From: Ensifer oleiphilus | GTDB lineage: Bacteria > Pseudomonadota > Alphaproteobacteria > Rhizobiales > Rhizobiaceae | Length of the DNA: 64,000 bases | Reading direction: 5' to 3' | NCBI RefSeq assembly: GCF_013371465.1 | Contig: NZ_JABWDU010000005.1 | Span: forward strand, 124,001 to 188,000 | In this document: piece by piece, positions 1 through 4,186 of the stretch | Layout: every line of letters begins with the position of its first letter | Numbering within the stretch: position 1 is the first letter of the stretch | Notes under the pieces: model-generated | Told to the model about the DNA's origin: nothing | Seen by the model: the letters and a program-made list of their open reading frames with translations, nothing else | Database searches by the model: none | Translations under genes and position numbers: made by a program

Positions 1-1
1 C

Positions 2-124
2 GAATATGTCGCCCAATCGAAGTTGCCGCCGACCCGCGGGCTGGCGGTCAACCTCGCCAAGAAGGCGCAGGCGGATAACGGAGCGAGCAGCGTGCAGATG
101 GTAACGTTCGAGATCAGGGAATAG
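2..124 (+). CDS. C-terminal fragment of an unidentified protein (5' end outside window)
   Basis: An open frame enters from the left edge and stops at TAG 122-124, leaving 40 residues that begin EYVAQSKLPP and end VTFEIRE. The stop lies 10 bases before the start of the OmpA-domain gene, so the two are probably co-transcribed. The family cannot be named from this tail. The segment EYVAQS resembles EYVAAQS in the second caspase-like protein (around residue 281), just after its EF-hand-like loop, so a further caspase-family member is possible, but the match is only a few residues. G/C-rich third positions agree with real coding sequence. Confidence 0.6.
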   Translation, partial: EYVAQSKLPPTRGLAVNLAKKAQADNGASSVQMVTFEIRE

Positions 125-134
125 CGCTAAGGCA

Positions 135-1037
135 ATGGGAAAGCTGGTTAAAAGATTGATCTTTGCTTCCGCCGTGCTGTTGCCGCTCGCCAACCAGGCC
201 AGCGCCTGTGACGCGCTGGCCAAAGCCTCCGAGGCCCTCAACGAGGGCGACGAGGCCGGGGCACGGTCGGCTGCCGCGCAGCAGAGCACGAAAGCTTGTT
301 CTGATACGGAGGCAGCGCTTACCCGGCGCGTGGCGGCGCTTGCGACTTTCAATCGCATTGCCAACGCGGTCGGAGGTGGCGCGCCCCTTGAAACGTTCCA
401 AATTGAGCTTGAAGCGGTGCGCAACGATGGCGGTGGACCATGGCAGATCCTCGACGCGCTCGGGGATATCGATCGGGCGCGAAAGAAATATGAAAGCGCG
501 GCGACCTATTACCAGCAGGCGCTTGAGGATGCGGCCAACGAGCAGCTGACCCCGGACTGGATGGCGCCGGACAATGCCTATATTCTGCGCCTCGACCGGC
601 TTGCCTCGGAGATGCGGCTTGCTGCAGCCAGGCCGGTGAAGCTCGCGATGCGCGGCGCCTGCAAATTTTCCTATCGCGGCGTATCGATCCGTAAGAAGGC
701 GACGCCGGTTCGCTATGTTTTCGGGACTGCCGAGTTCACGCCTGAAGGGCTGCAATCAGCAAAGGATCTGTTCGAGTGCCTGAAATCGGCAAAACCCGCG
801 TCGATCACCCTGATTGGCCACACGGATCCGGTGGGCAGCGCAGAAGCGAACAAGACGTTGTCGCTGGCGCGTGCCGAAGCTCTCGCGCACTATCTCGTGG
901 ACGCTGGCTACAAGGGCACCTGGACCACGGTCGGCAAGGGTGAGGAAGAGCCGTTCAAGCCGGATGACCCGAGCGCTTATGACGAAGCGATGCTGCACCA
1001 ATTGGATCGCCGGGTTGAAGTTGATGTGGAGAAATAG
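135..1037 (+). CDS. Exported OmpA-family (peptidoglycan-binding) protein with TPR-like middle
   Basis: This is a 300-residue protein. Residues 1-24 form a signal peptide (basic start, hydrophobic core, ending QASA before C25); C25 is not in a good lipobox, so a periplasmic protein is more likely than a lipoprotein. Residues about 30-160 are helical, with a TPR-like stretch (KYESAATYYQQAL). Residues about 190-300 are an OmpA C-terminal domain: GHTDPVGS then LSLARAEA, ending in DRRVEVDV. D231 and R246 sit 15 apart, as do the diaminopimelate-contacting Asp and Arg of known OmpA domains, so peptidoglycan binding is expected. There is no beta-barrel. It lies 3 bases upstream of the first caspase gene in one operon, which suggests it anchors the system to the cell wall (inference). 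Confidence 0.9.
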   Translation: MGKLVKRLIFASAVLLPLANQASACDALAKASEALNEGDEAGARSAAAQQSTKACSDTEAALTRRVAALATFNRIANAVGGGAPLETFQIELEAVRNDGGGPWQILDALGDIDRARKKYESAATYYQQALEDAANEQLTPDWMAPDNAYILRLDRLASEMRLAAARPVKLAMRGACKFSYRGVSIRKKATPVRYVFGTAEFTPEGLQSAKDLFECLKSAKPASITLIGHTDPVGSAEANKTLSLARAEALAHYLVDAGYKGTWTTVGKGEEEPFKPDDPSAYDEAMLHQLDRRVEVDVEK

Positions 1038-1040
1038 ACG

Positions 1041-2594
1041 GTGCTTCACAAGGCTCTGATTTCGAGCGTGATCGTTGGGGTGTCGGCTCTGCCCGCCATG
1101 GCCGCCACGTCAGCGCTTGTCGTCGGCGTCGATATCTATCCACATGAAGTGAGCCTCGACGGCGCCGCCAAGGATGCGCGTGACGTGGTGCAGGCGTTGA
1201 AGACGGCGGATGTCGGCACGATCCGCGAATTCATCAACGAGCAGGCGACCAAGGGCGCGATCCGTACCGCGTGGCTGGAGCTTGTCACGGCCGCAACAAC
1301 AGGCGACACGATCATCTTCACCTATGCCGGGCATGGCGCCCAGATGCCGGAGCTTGTTGCCGGCAGCGAGCCGGATGGGCTGGACGAATTTTTGGAGCTT
1401 CCGGGTTTCGATCGCAGCCGGGCCGCGGAGACGGCGAAGGAGATCATCGTCGACAATGAGCTCAATGCCTGGTTCGCCGAAGCCGAGGCCAAGGGCATCC
1501 AGGTGTTGTTCGTTTCCGACAGCTGTTACTCCGGCGGTATGAATCGGTCGATCTCCGGCAAGACGCGGCTTGCGCCGACGGTGCGGGCACAATTGCCGCC
1601 GCCATCGCAGGAGGCGGTTTCCGGCGCCGCGGTCAAAGACGAGGATCTGGCGCAGGTGACAATCCTTGCCGCATCGCTTGAGAGCCAGCCAACGCCGGAG
1701 GTGGTGATCGAAGGCGAGCCAAGGGGCGCGCTGAGCTGGAGTTTCGCCCGTGCGCTTGAGGGGGCTGCCGATCGTGATGGTGACAGTATGATCTCGCGGG
1801 TCGAGCTTGAGGATTACGTGTTTTCCAACGTCAAGCTCCAATCCGAGGCTCTGCAAGTGCCAAACTTTACGCCGCAGATTCCGCGATCAGATAGGGAAAT
1901 CGTCCTGTCGTTGCCCAGAAGTGCTACGCTGGCCGCAGGCAACAGTGCTGCCGCAACTCGCCGGTCTGTAAAGCTGAAACCGGCCCGGGACATGGGGTGG
2001 ACGGGCAAGCTGGCGCTCAGCGTCGATGGCGTGTCGCTGACGCTTCAGAATGTCGGTGGCAGCGGCGTCCCCTATCGATGGGATGCTGTCAGCGGCACAT
2101 TCTACACGCCGAACGGCGATGTCGCGGGCGAACACGTTGCCCCCGATATGGTGCAGGGGGTGGTGGACAAGTTCATCCTCCTCGATTTCCTGAAGGCTCT
2201 CGCCGCGCAGAACCCCGGCAAAGTCTCGCTGACGCCGGCCAAGGACATCTATTCGTCAGGGGATCGCCTGAATTTCGATGCGCCGCAATCCGGATACGCG
2301 AACATGTTGGTCGTCAATCTCGCAAATACCGGGGAAGTCCAACTGCTCGATGCCCAGATCGCTGGCTCCGGCAGCCATGTGTTCAAGCTGACGGACCTGG
2401 AAGTGGTCAAGCCTTTCGGCGCCGATCATCTGGTGGTCGTCTCGACGAACGCTCCGATCGATGCGGTGGCTGCTGCCCTCGCGAGCCCTGGGGTAGACGC
2501 GTCCAGGTTTTTGCGTCTCCTGGAAGAACGGCTGGACGGAACCGACAGTGCCGTCGCGATCCAGCCGCTCTACACCCGGGAGCGCGGGCAATGA
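1041..2594 (+). CDS. Exported caspase-family (C14) protein with EF-hand-like loop and DUF4384-like C-terminus
   Basis: The start is GTG, 3 bases after the OmpA-domain gene; the protein has 517 residues. A signal peptide ends near residue 21 (PAMA). The caspase fold follows, with catalytic His98 in FTYAGHGAQ and Cys162 in FVSDSCYSGG, so an active His/Cys dyad is present. Residues 244-255 (DRDGDSMISRVE) fit the canonical 12-residue EF-hand calcium loop with D, D, D, S and E at positions 1, 3, 5, 9 and 12. The C-terminal third (GDRLNFDAPQSGYANMLVVN) looks like the DUF4384 domain often attached to bacterial caspases. Metacaspases are typically calcium-dependent Arg/Lys-specific proteases; the target here is unknown. 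Its stop overlaps the next gene's start by 4 bases. Confidence 0.9.
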   Translation: MLHKALISSVIVGVSALPAMAATSALVVGVDIYPHEVSLDGAAKDARDVVQALKTADVGTIREFINEQATKGAIRTAWLELVTAATTGDTIIFTYAGHGAQMPELVAGSEPDGLDEFLELPGFDRSRAAETAKEIIVDNELNAWFAEAEAKGIQVLFVSDSCYSGGMNRSISGKTRLAPTVRAQLPPPSQEAVSGAAVKDEDLAQVTILAASLESQPTPEVVIEGEPRGALSWSFARALEGAADRDGDSMISRVELEDYVFSNVKLQSEALQVPNFTPQIPRSDREIVLSLPRSATLAAGNSAAATRRSVKLKPARDMGWTGKLALSVDGVSLTLQNVGGSGVPYRWDAVSGTFYTPNGDVAGEHVAPDMVQGVVDKFILLDFLKALAAQNPGKVSLTPAKDIYSSGDRLNFDAPQSGYANMLVVNLANTGEVQLLDAQIAGSGSHVFKLTDLEVVKPFGADHLVVVSTNAPIDAVAAALASPGVDASRFLRLLEERLDGTDSAVAIQPLYTRERGQ

Positions 2595-4111
2595 GCGTCG
2601 ACATCAGGGCCTGGTCTTTGCTGTTGCCGCTTGTCGGCTTGGGGATGGGTTCGCCCGCATTGGCTGCGGACCGAGCCTTGCTGATCGGGATCGGAAGCTA
2701 CCATAACCTGCCGCCCAAGCTGTTCCTGCACGGGCCGAAAAACGACCTTGTTGCCATGGAGGGGCTGCTGGCCGGCATTCTCGGCTTCGATCGTTCTGCC
2801 ATTCGCGTCCTGAAGGACGGGCAGGCGACGCGCGCGACCATCCTGTCGTCGGTCGAGGAGTGGCTGATCGCGGGAACAGAACCCGGAGACCGTGCCTATC
2901 TCTACTATTCAGGTCACGGTCTCCAGGTCGCCGATATCGATGGCGACGAGGCTGACGGTTTGGATGAGGCGCTGGCGCCCTTCGATGTGGTCGCCGGGAC
3001 CAAGGATTGGGACGGTGCCGTTACCGATGACGATCTCGATGCCATTCTCGACCGTTTGAAGGGCAGGGCGGTGACCCTGGTGATCGATGCGTGTCACTCG
3101 GACACGATTTCGCGGTCGCTGTCGGGGGAGGTATCCGCCGGCATCGACGGCGCCCGTTTCTTGGCGCGGCCCGAGGCGAAGCCGGTCGAACAGGCGCTGA
3201 CACGTGGGCTTCGCATCGACCTTGGTGTCGTCGACAAGCCCGGCCGCGCCAAAGAGAGCGGTATCGCCGCCTGGAGTGCAAGCGCACCCTACCAGGTGGC
3301 GTGGGACGATGTGAGGCTGCCGATCGAAAGGCGCCACGGCGTTTTCACGGAAGCCTATGTCGCGGGGCAAGTGGGGGCGTCGGCAGACGCCAACGCCAAT
3401 GGGCTGACCAGTAACGCCGAACTTTTCGAATATGTCGCGGCGCAATCTGCCGCTTTTTGCGCATCGCAGCAGAAATGCGAGACGCTCGACCCACAATTTG
3501 AAACGAAAGCGCAGAACCTCGGTGCCAGTGCGGTCGTTCCGGTACAGGCAGGGACTGAAGCGCCGGCACGATATCAGCCCGTTGCCGCCGATGGTGCCGC
3601 CCCGACAAGTTATCAGGTTGCAAATGCAGTCGATGCGGTCGGCGATATCGTCGGCAAGGCCGATGCTGGCGACGTGCGTATCAGCATCGACCGGCCAACC
3701 ACGATGAAAGCCGGTGACGTGTTCAAGTTGACGGTCGCAAGCAAGGTTGCCGGAAGTCTCATACTTCTCGATGTCGGCGCGAATGGTGCCGCAACCCAGA
3801 TCTTTCCCAATGAGTTCGCGCAGAAGATTACGCCGCTTGCCGCCAACGTGCCACTGACGTTACCGGACGAATATTATGGCTTCGACTTCGAAGCGTCGGG
3901 AGAAGGAGAGAGTGCATTCGTTGCGCTGGTGGTCAGCGACGCCGTCGATCTGGCTGACGTTGCGCCGAAAACACGAGGGCTGAAGATCGAGCTCAGTGCG
4001 CGAGAAACGCTAAGCGAAATCGTCTCGCGGCTGCAGCAGGCCTGGACTGACGACCTGGACAAACGCGGCATCCGCTGGTCGGTCGGCACGCTACGCTATC
4101 ACGTCGAATGA
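2591..4111 (+). CDS. Second exported caspase-family (C14) protein with EF-hand-like loop and DUF4384-like C-terminus
   Basis: The start ATG overlaps the previous TGA (ATGA), indicating translational coupling; the protein has 506 residues. A signal peptide ends near residue 26 (SPALA-A). The caspase core has His109 in YYSGHGLQV and Cys168 in VIDACHSD, so the dyad is intact. An acidic segment after the His (DIDGDEADGLDEAL) matches the arrangement of the first paralogue. Residues 266-277 (DANANGLTSNAE) form an EF-hand-like loop with D, N, N, S and E at positions 1, 3, 5, 9 and 12. The C-terminus (GDVFKLTVASKVAGSLILLDV) is DUF4384-like. Two exported caspases beside an OmpA-domain protein suggest a calcium-responsive envelope protease module; this is inference. 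Confidence 0.9.
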   Translation: MSVDIRAWSLLLPLVGLGMGSPALAADRALLIGIGSYHNLPPKLFLHGPKNDLVAMEGLLAGILGFDRSAIRVLKDGQATRATILSSVEEWLIAGTEPGDRAYLYYSGHGLQVADIDGDEADGLDEALAPFDVVAGTKDWDGAVTDDDLDAILDRLKGRAVTLVIDACHSDTISRSLSGEVSAGIDGARFLARPEAKPVEQALTRGLRIDLGVVDKPGRAKESGIAAWSASAPYQVAWDDVRLPIERRHGVFTEAYVAGQVGASADANANGLTSNAELFEYVAAQSAAFCASQQKCETLDPQFETKAQNLGASAVVPVQAGTEAPARYQPVAADGAAPTSYQVANAVDAVGDIVGKADAGDVRISIDRPTTMKAGDVFKLTVASKVAGSLILLDVGANGAATQIFPNEFAQKITPLAANVPLTLPDEYYGFDFEASGEGESAFVALVVSDAVDLADVAPKTRGLKIELSARETLSEIVSRLQQAWTDDLDKRGIRWSVGTLRYHVE

Positions 4112-4136
4112 TTATTTCTGCGGCAGATCGGATAGC

Positions 4137-4164
4137 AAAAAGCCCGCCGGAAAGGCGGGCTTTC
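4137..4164. terminator. Bidirectional rho-independent terminator
   Basis: An 8-bp stem (AGCCCGCC 4141-4148, GGCGGGCT 4154-4161) closes on a GGAAA loop, with an A-run before it and T-run after it. It therefore works for the caspase operon on plus and for aapP on minus, which converge here. Confidence 0.9.
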
Positions 4165-4186
4165 TGTTTGAAATCCTTAGCGATTC

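Follow-up and report, generated by a model that had tools for sequence, protein, structure and literature searches.

The stretch of DNA analysed here (the window, 64,000 nucleotides) comes from Ensifer oleiphilus (assembly GCF_013371465.1, contig NZ_JABWDU010000005.1, positions 124,001 to 188,000; G000:C28:124001-188000 in our numbering, G000 being the genome of this strain). It opens with genes for an OmpA-domain protein and two caspase-type proteases, caspase A and caspase B, which form the rear of a five-gene operon. The two front genes, encoding an NADPH oxidase (NOX)-like flavocytochrome and a tetrahaem cytochrome c, lie largely upstream of the window. At the level of sequence, the five genes stand together, are conserved and evolve under purifying selection, and the recurrence of the set in distant relatives suggests that electron flow and proteolysis are linked in a system of the envelope. 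The explanation that we favour, tentatively and with a probability of about 0.4, is an envelope redox-and-protease module in which the caspases would be tethered to the wall and the redox branch would signal to them.

A preliminary description of the window had read the trio at 135-4111 as an operon. Its three genes and the gaps of 3 and -4 bases agree with the open reading frame coordinates, and the tight packing holds; the trio as a complete operon is ruled out by two more operon genes found upstream in L007 (the same locus with the stretch upstream of the window included). Because the start of the window cuts the operon, the earlier reader could not see the oxidase and cytochrome genes, and their presence changes the likely meaning of the caspase trio. 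The operon starts at L007:7604 and runs oxidase-cytochrome-OmpA protein-caspase A-caspase B, with 39, 10 and 3 bases between the first four genes and a 4-base overlap between the caspases. From this spacing and the conservation described below, we infer a single transcript. The features are as follows.

L007:7604-8857, outside the window, just before the cytochrome gene (gap 39): NOX-like flavocytochrome gene
1..124, + strand: 3′ end of the tetrahaem cytochrome c gene (whole gene L007:8897-12124 = G000:C28:120897-124124, 1075 residues)
135..1037, + strand: protein of 300 residues with tetratricopeptide repeats (TPR) and an OmpA domain (714-971; D231/R246), predicted to be exported
1041..2594, + strand, GTG start: caspase A, metacaspase-type protease, predicted to be exported; H98 (1332-1334) and C162 (1524-1526)
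1770..1805, + strand: EF-hand-like loop, caspase A residues 244-255
2223..2540, + strand: DUF4384-like C-terminal region of caspase A, about residues 395-500, from profile-profile alignment
2591..4111, + strand: caspase B, metacaspase-type protease, probably exported; H109 (2915-2917) and C168 (3092-3094)
3386..3421, + strand: EF-hand-like loop, caspase B residues 266-277
3707..3931, + strand: DUF4384 domain of caspase B (PF14326, 39.1 bits)
4134..4168, no strand: hairpin between caspase B and a convergent ABC-transporter gene, from folding energy

A profile scan of named genomes with caspase A returned at least 506 confirmed stretches, of which the best 79 distinct loci, together with the E. 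oleiphilus locus, make up the 80 loci compared here (counts over L081-L159 are from six-frame profile hits). The five-gene order is found in 42 of the 80. All five genes are intact by stricter thresholds in 39, on which the residue counts below are based; the remaining three (L085, L120, L123) show split genes, and L111, with a small split in caspase A, still passes. Five-gene loci occur in Ensifer, Rhizobium, Pararhizobium, Shinella, Metarhizobium, a Sinorhizobium, other Rhizobiales and Cucumibacter, and the nearest named locus among the best ones is that of Ensifer adhaerens Lc04 (94% identity in caspase A). When the 80 loci are sorted by our own classing into Rhizobiaceae-type (L007, L081-L124) and others, the order OmpA-caspase A-caspase B is kept in 40/45 and 10/35, respectively, so that the trio linkage which the preliminary description had proposed to look for in relatives is indeed conserved; the OmpA/TPR protein is missing beside caspase A in 21/35 of the other loci. 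Ratios of nonsynonymous to synonymous substitution rates (dN/dS) of 0.05-0.17 for all five genes in four Ensifer pairs point to purifying selection, which is weaker in one Shinella pair (0.23-0.38). The distance matrices of the five genes agree (rho 0.72-0.88), which shows joint inheritance only, since similar agreement is to be expected of any genes that are passed on vertically.

Relatives of caspase A occupy 25 places in 24 of the 199 genomes sampled from the order (140 bits or more) and occur in 4/289 genomes of the class and 12/299 of the phylum (E 1e-40), each of these samples including the E. oleiphilus genome and overlapping with the others in further genomes. The notion of a curiosity confined to Rhizobium is rejected by this spread. 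The comparison of gene neighbourhoods outside the 80 loci leaves out L077 and three loci with a tblastn caspase match and none in the locus scan (L073, L076, L079). Caspase B lies within 12 kb at 20 of the 25 places in the order, and a cytochrome match lies within 20 kb at 11 or more of them, where a rough estimate of the chance expectation for a 40-kb stretch is a few per cent.

Since the 80 loci were fetched by caspase A, a link to the cytochrome cannot be proved from them, whereas it can from searches that start with the cytochrome. With a cytochrome core defined as a match reaching beyond residue 400, and among the matches listed, there are 23 places in 22 of the 199 genomes of the order. 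Ten of these have a caspase within 20 kb, and two (G144, G150) are limited by contig ends. In the phylum sample the core is found in 2/299 genomes (E 1e-30), that of E. oleiphilus and G351, with caspase A adjoining in both. An oxidase beside the cytochrome was met through the cytochrome in G000, G058, G197, G351 (outside the order) and a Neorhizobium petrolearium plasmid, and in each of the five clusters, that of E. oleiphilus included, a caspase gene occurs together with a peptidoglycan-binding domain. On the Neorhizobium plasmid the order is caspase-OmpA-oxidase-cytochrome, the cytochrome having 39.7% identity. The caspases of this plasmid and of G058 are of another type with their own peptidoglycan-binding domain (PF01471), and those of G058, G351 and Neorhizobium have starts that look like signal peptides, judged by eye.

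The oxidase (417 residues) matches the Pfam families Ferric_reduct (48.7 bits), FAD_binding_8 (27.9 bits) and NAD_binding_1 (31.0 bits). In a PDB sequence search its best solved relatives are 8qt6, which we take to be SpNOX, and the sister entries of that structure (149 bits for residues 28-416). Next in rank are flavin reductases and flavohaemoproteins, which take 13 places among the matches of 28 bits or more; those to dual oxidase 1 and cytochrome b-245 lie at 24-28 bits. Histidines 69, 83, 142 and 155, presumably the haem ligands, align with histidines of 8qt6 and are invariant in 39/39 loci. With its ferric-reductase membrane domain, FAD and NAD domains and these four histidines, the protein is a predicted prokaryotic NADPH oxidase, the electrons of which could go to the cytochrome or to iron instead of being released as superoxide.

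The cytochrome carries four CxxCH motifs, a Cytochrom_C match (50.8 bits) and a C-terminal DUF4384 domain (29.9 bits). All four motifs are kept in 39/39 loci, as are Cys 322, 478, 962 and 1019 outside them, and a signal peptide is called by rule of thumb in 38/39, as expected of a periplasmic multihaem cytochrome c. The AlphaFold model (pLDDT 72.7, pTM 0.54) is good in parts only, with the linker at residues 311-330 of low confidence. Fold searches matched the N-terminal diheme part, which resembles the cytochrome subunits of fructose and alcohol dehydrogenases (8jej_C, 8gy2_B; Z 15.2), and the DUF4384 end, which is Ig-like in the model (best Z 10.3, a common arrangement), and these two parts only, which is not evidence of a new fold. 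The central two-haem part has conserved motifs including NRxxERH and DGGE..F.LPNG; a PDB sequence search assigned this domain to no enzyme family and returned ordinary c-type cytochromes. Unlike the dehydrogenase subunits that it resembles at its N-terminus, the operon cytochrome is fused to this central diheme domain and to DUF4384, and the five-gene operon has no dehydrogenase subunit, unlike membrane-bound fructose and alcohol dehydrogenases. The two parts of the cytochrome are separate genes in G121, G198, G150, G087 and G050. Six f33 genomes (L043-L048) have a tetrahaem cytochrome-DUF4384 fusion of about 35-37% identity with neither oxidase nor caspase nearby.

The OmpA protein matches PF00691 at 50.2 bits (cut-off 27.2), and its TPR matches are below the cut-off. 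The Asp/Arg pair D231 and R246, already reported in the preliminary description, is kept in 39/39 loci, and the domain is predicted to bind the peptidoglycan wall. Signal peptides were scored in the 39 five-gene loci by a simple home-made rule that tries every start. The OmpA protein passes in 39/39, caspase A in 35/39 and caspase B in 33/39, against a background of 16/39 for the membrane oxidase and 83/366 for other genes of these loci. By this rule of thumb, signal-peptide prediction does not fail for both caspases, the outcome named beforehand as refuting the earlier reading. Outside the catalytic and haem-binding positions, conserved cysteines number four in the OmpA protein, two in caspase B (C290, C296) and four in the cytochrome, all in 39/39, and such even numbers fit an oxidising compartment. 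The earlier proposal, two exported caspases linked to a partner that binds peptidoglycan, gains support from the kept gene order and the signal-peptide rule. From the families, the predicted topology has the flavin and NAD domains inside, the b haems in the membrane, and the c haems and signal-peptide proteins outside.

Both caspases match Peptidase_C14 (PF00656; caspase A 41.6 bits, caspase B 68.6 bits, cut-off 21.4), and the nearest solved sequences of both are mostly metacaspases in a PDB sequence search. The two align as paralogues through most of their sequence (21% identity; hhalign probability 100%, E 3e-44). The intact His/Cys dyads of the preliminary description were confirmed by reading the codons directly. 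Both dyad residues of caspase A are kept in 39/39 loci, and in caspase B H109 and C168 are each kept in 38/39 and occur together in 37/39. For caspase A the AlphaFold model (pLDDT 82.2) gives GSU0716, MALT1 and metacaspases as the best Foldseek matches. Caspase fold and dyad indicate membership of Peptidase C14, the fold match coming from the caspase A model only. An Asp two positions before the dyad Cys is found in 39/39 in both caspases, D52 of caspase B in 39/39 and D45 of caspase A in 38/39; these are candidates for the two conserved Asp that line the acidic specificity pocket of the family (PMC6426788).

Caspase A has a loop of the form D-x-D-x-D-x-x-I-x-x-x-E between predicted helices 230-242 and 253-267, with a strand at 250-252, and this EF-hand-like motif is present in caspase B too. 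The loop is found at the aligned place in 39/39 in each caspase (by a strict pattern, 37/39 for A and 39/39 for B) and in wider alignments in 18/20 sequences for caspase A (A1) and 14/18 for caspase B (A2); the two other full-length caspases of the E. oleiphilus genome do not have it. The same genome also holds a caspase remnant (L010, G000:C1:16410-16683) of two short neighbouring pieces, seemingly out of frame with each other. Pfam places DUF4384 on caspase B and lists none for caspase A at E <= 1; the end of caspase A aligns with the DUF4384 part of caspase B in the profile-profile comparison, and the caspase A homologue of G351 scores 22.1 bits, under the cut-off of 27. A C-terminal DUF4384-type domain is common to the cytochrome and both caspases.

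The partners of caspase A are swapped in several loci. In loci lacking the cytochrome, another DUF4384 gene may stand beside the trio, with Sel1 repeats and PG_binding_1 in L061 and with DUF4384 alone in L064, L065 and L068. In L070 and R. etli, and in L071 by profile score, DUF4384 is part of the OmpA protein, and caspase B combines a trypsin at its N-terminus with a Q/C dyad; a trypsin with DUF4384 replaces caspase B in L074. A serpin and a Ser/Thr kinase lie downstream in L070 and R. etli, and the clusters of caspase, trypsin-pseudocaspase, serpin and kinase span L070 3640-13372 (G023) and L161 5933-15719 (R. etli plasmid). They resemble a protease and protease-inhibitor operon noted in passages of PMC3501461. 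Trypsin fusion or replacement, with a serpin neighbour in two loci, is as expected of an exported proteolytic cascade, and the swaps leave caspase A and DUF4384 as the most constant parts. Six of the eight Azospirillum loci among the 80 (L129, L130, L135, L136, L139, L141) have caspase A with no OmpA gene upstream or caspase B downstream. Other arrangements include a CHASE2 cyclase and a Crp-type regulator between trio and cytochrome (L056 7254-18092), three more tandem caspases after caspase A in G351 (L172 565-6133), the scanned one with a C-terminal LprI (lysozyme inhibitor) domain, and a caspase A relative near another caspase, a glycine-zipper protein and tssL/tssM (L162 1-9533, Azospirillum lipoferum 4B plasmid).

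In the envelope module as we picture it, electrons would pass from the oxidase to the cytochrome or to oxygen, the OmpA/TPR protein would tether the caspases at the wall, and the Ig-like DUF4384 domains would serve as docking parts that join cytochrome and caspases. The caspases would be inactive until export, with the Ca2+-rich periplasm acting as the on-switch, and would then cut after Arg or Lys upon a signal from the redox branch, be it haem state or an oxidant. Caspase A would be the constant protease and caspase B the more variable partner, able to lose its dyad or to yield to a trypsin. In a more specific version, an unlikely one at odds of about one in five, the tetrahaem cytochrome of the periplasm would receive electrons or oxidants and, by way of the shared DUF4384 domain, activate caspases that are held at the wall and depend on Ca2+. 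If true, this would be a bacterial counterpart of the cytochrome c-to-caspase link of animal apoptosis, whether the parts share a common ancestry or have converged. Little is established, to our knowledge, about what bacterial caspases do, and for one caspase family the operon points to a likely site (the envelope), a tether (the wall), a redox partner and, as likely cofactor, Ca2+. Control of the proteases by redox state would give bacteria a cytochrome-to-caspase link; even without such control, the exported protease module recurs and can exchange its partners (cytochrome, trypsin with serpin, wall-binding proteins).

Several observations weigh against this explanation. Eleven of the 23 cytochrome-core places have no caspase found within 20 kb (the six f33 genomes, G037, G115, G036, G053 and a second place in G113), where G036 and G192 are near contig ends and other caspase types may have escaped the cytochrome-locus search. 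In the order, 24/27 NOX matches are not beside the cytochrome, and the trio occurs with no cytochrome in the stretch in L061-L065 and L068-L071 (L063 and L069 being short contigs), as well as in L074; the redox half and the protease half thus each also occur alone. The flanks are conserved in Rhizobiaceae too (d2-d4 in 23/39, u3 in 31/39), so linkage within that family is partly plain synteny; the downstream flanks are not shared in Shinella, the tested flanks are all missing in L102, L105 and L116, and those of Cucumibacter give a weak ABC-ATPase match only. Three f50 genomes (L053, L055, L058) have a caspase B lacking both dyad residues, likely a pseudoprotease partner. The signal peptides proposed earlier for the whole trio pass the rule in most loci, while caspase B of E. 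oleiphilus itself fails it because of a short n-region with no net positive charge; its start nevertheless has a hydrophobic core ending in ALA|AD. As for Ca2+, the loose loop pattern is not rare (41/236 genes of 300-700 residues, caspases included) and Pfam gives no EF-hand on the trio proteins at E <= 1, so that Ca2+ binding by the caspase loops stays a good guess.

The same modules could be connected in the reverse direction, with the caspases maturing, activating or removing the redox enzyme and the cytochrome being cut in the linker between its two diheme parts. The low-confidence linker, the DUF4384 domain common to cytochrome and caspases, and the five genomes in which the cytochrome parts are separate genes would all suit such processing, which we hold to be rather unlikely: loci with already split cytochrome genes still keep caspases, tetrahaem fusions of the f33 type have no caspase nearby, and the trio occurs with no cytochrome as well. 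That each half is found without the other would suit an account with no direct coupling, in which an electron-transfer or iron- or oxidant-handling pair shares just a promoter and a stress regime with an exported protease trio. This account is also doubtful, in view of the caspase present in 5/5 oxidase and cytochrome pairs, across varied gene orders and caspase types, and of the shared DUF4384 domain.

Defence against phages or competitors, with the caspases as suicide or counter-attack effectors on envelope breach, is a far less probable function than any of these. The PADLOC 'caspase' model does match both caspases (56 and 84 bits), and in Azospirillum lipoferum a homologue of caspase A has tssM/tssL, genes of type VI secretion, close by. 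No PADLOC model matches the oxidase, however, the cytochrome has one weak match (15 bits) and the OmpA protein has generic TPR/ZorB matches (<=25 bits), so that with only generic or weak matches in PADLOC-DB of 2023 the operon was not assigned to a known anti-phage system. The genomic neighbours, moreover, are kept in many Rhizobiaceae, unlike those of a variable island, and the effectors of caspase defence systems are, as far as known, cytoplasmic.

Metacaspase operons with OmpA are already known, and the link to an oxidase and a cytochrome is apparently new within the literature searched, where no report of an oxidase-cytochrome-caspase set was found (largely excluding subscription papers, preprints and supplementary tables). 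Passages of a 2012 survey (Asplund-Samuelsson 2012, PMC3501461) report 46 metacaspases with one N-terminal helix, possibly a signal peptide, OmpA in 14/217 metacaspase operons, 20 operons that hold two or more metacaspases, some of them in Alphaproteobacteria, and a protease and protease-inhibitor operon in four Rhizobium strains. The present operon is like these in its C14 proteases, several per operon, and its OmpA partner, whereas its NOX-like gene and shared DUF4384 are not described in those passages, and the words 'cytochrome', 'haem' and 'heme' are absent from the main text. Trypsin-QC pseudo-orthocaspase-DUF4384 proteins of Alphaproteobacteria, described in Klemencic 2019 (PMC6426788), have their domains arranged as in the relatives of caspase B from L070, L071 and the R. 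etli plasmid; unlike them, caspase B of the operon keeps its dyad, has no trypsin and is partnered by an oxidase and a cytochrome. The available part of PMC4933709 mentions neither DUF4384 nor OmpA, periplasm or cytochrome. SpNOX-type prokaryotic NADPH oxidases (PMC11564096, PMC11031084) share the three Pfam domain types with the operon oxidase, a likeness extended by the near full-length alignment with 8qt6 and the four aligned histidines; unlike them, the operon oxidase stands beside genes for a tetrahaem cytochrome c and caspases.

Downstream of caspase B, the hairpin at 4134..4168 (-22.9 kcal/mol, z -5.1, 0/200 shuffles equally good) is probably a two-way terminator; a consensus scan does not have it in its list. 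Promoter scans of the locus gave about as many matches as in shuffled sequence. A GntR/FCD gene lies near the five-gene operon in 24/39 loci. On the 5′ side of the oxidase gene, a block at L007:7521-7620 with TTGACGA and GCTTG(T/C)CA is kept in eight aligned Ensifer-type loci.

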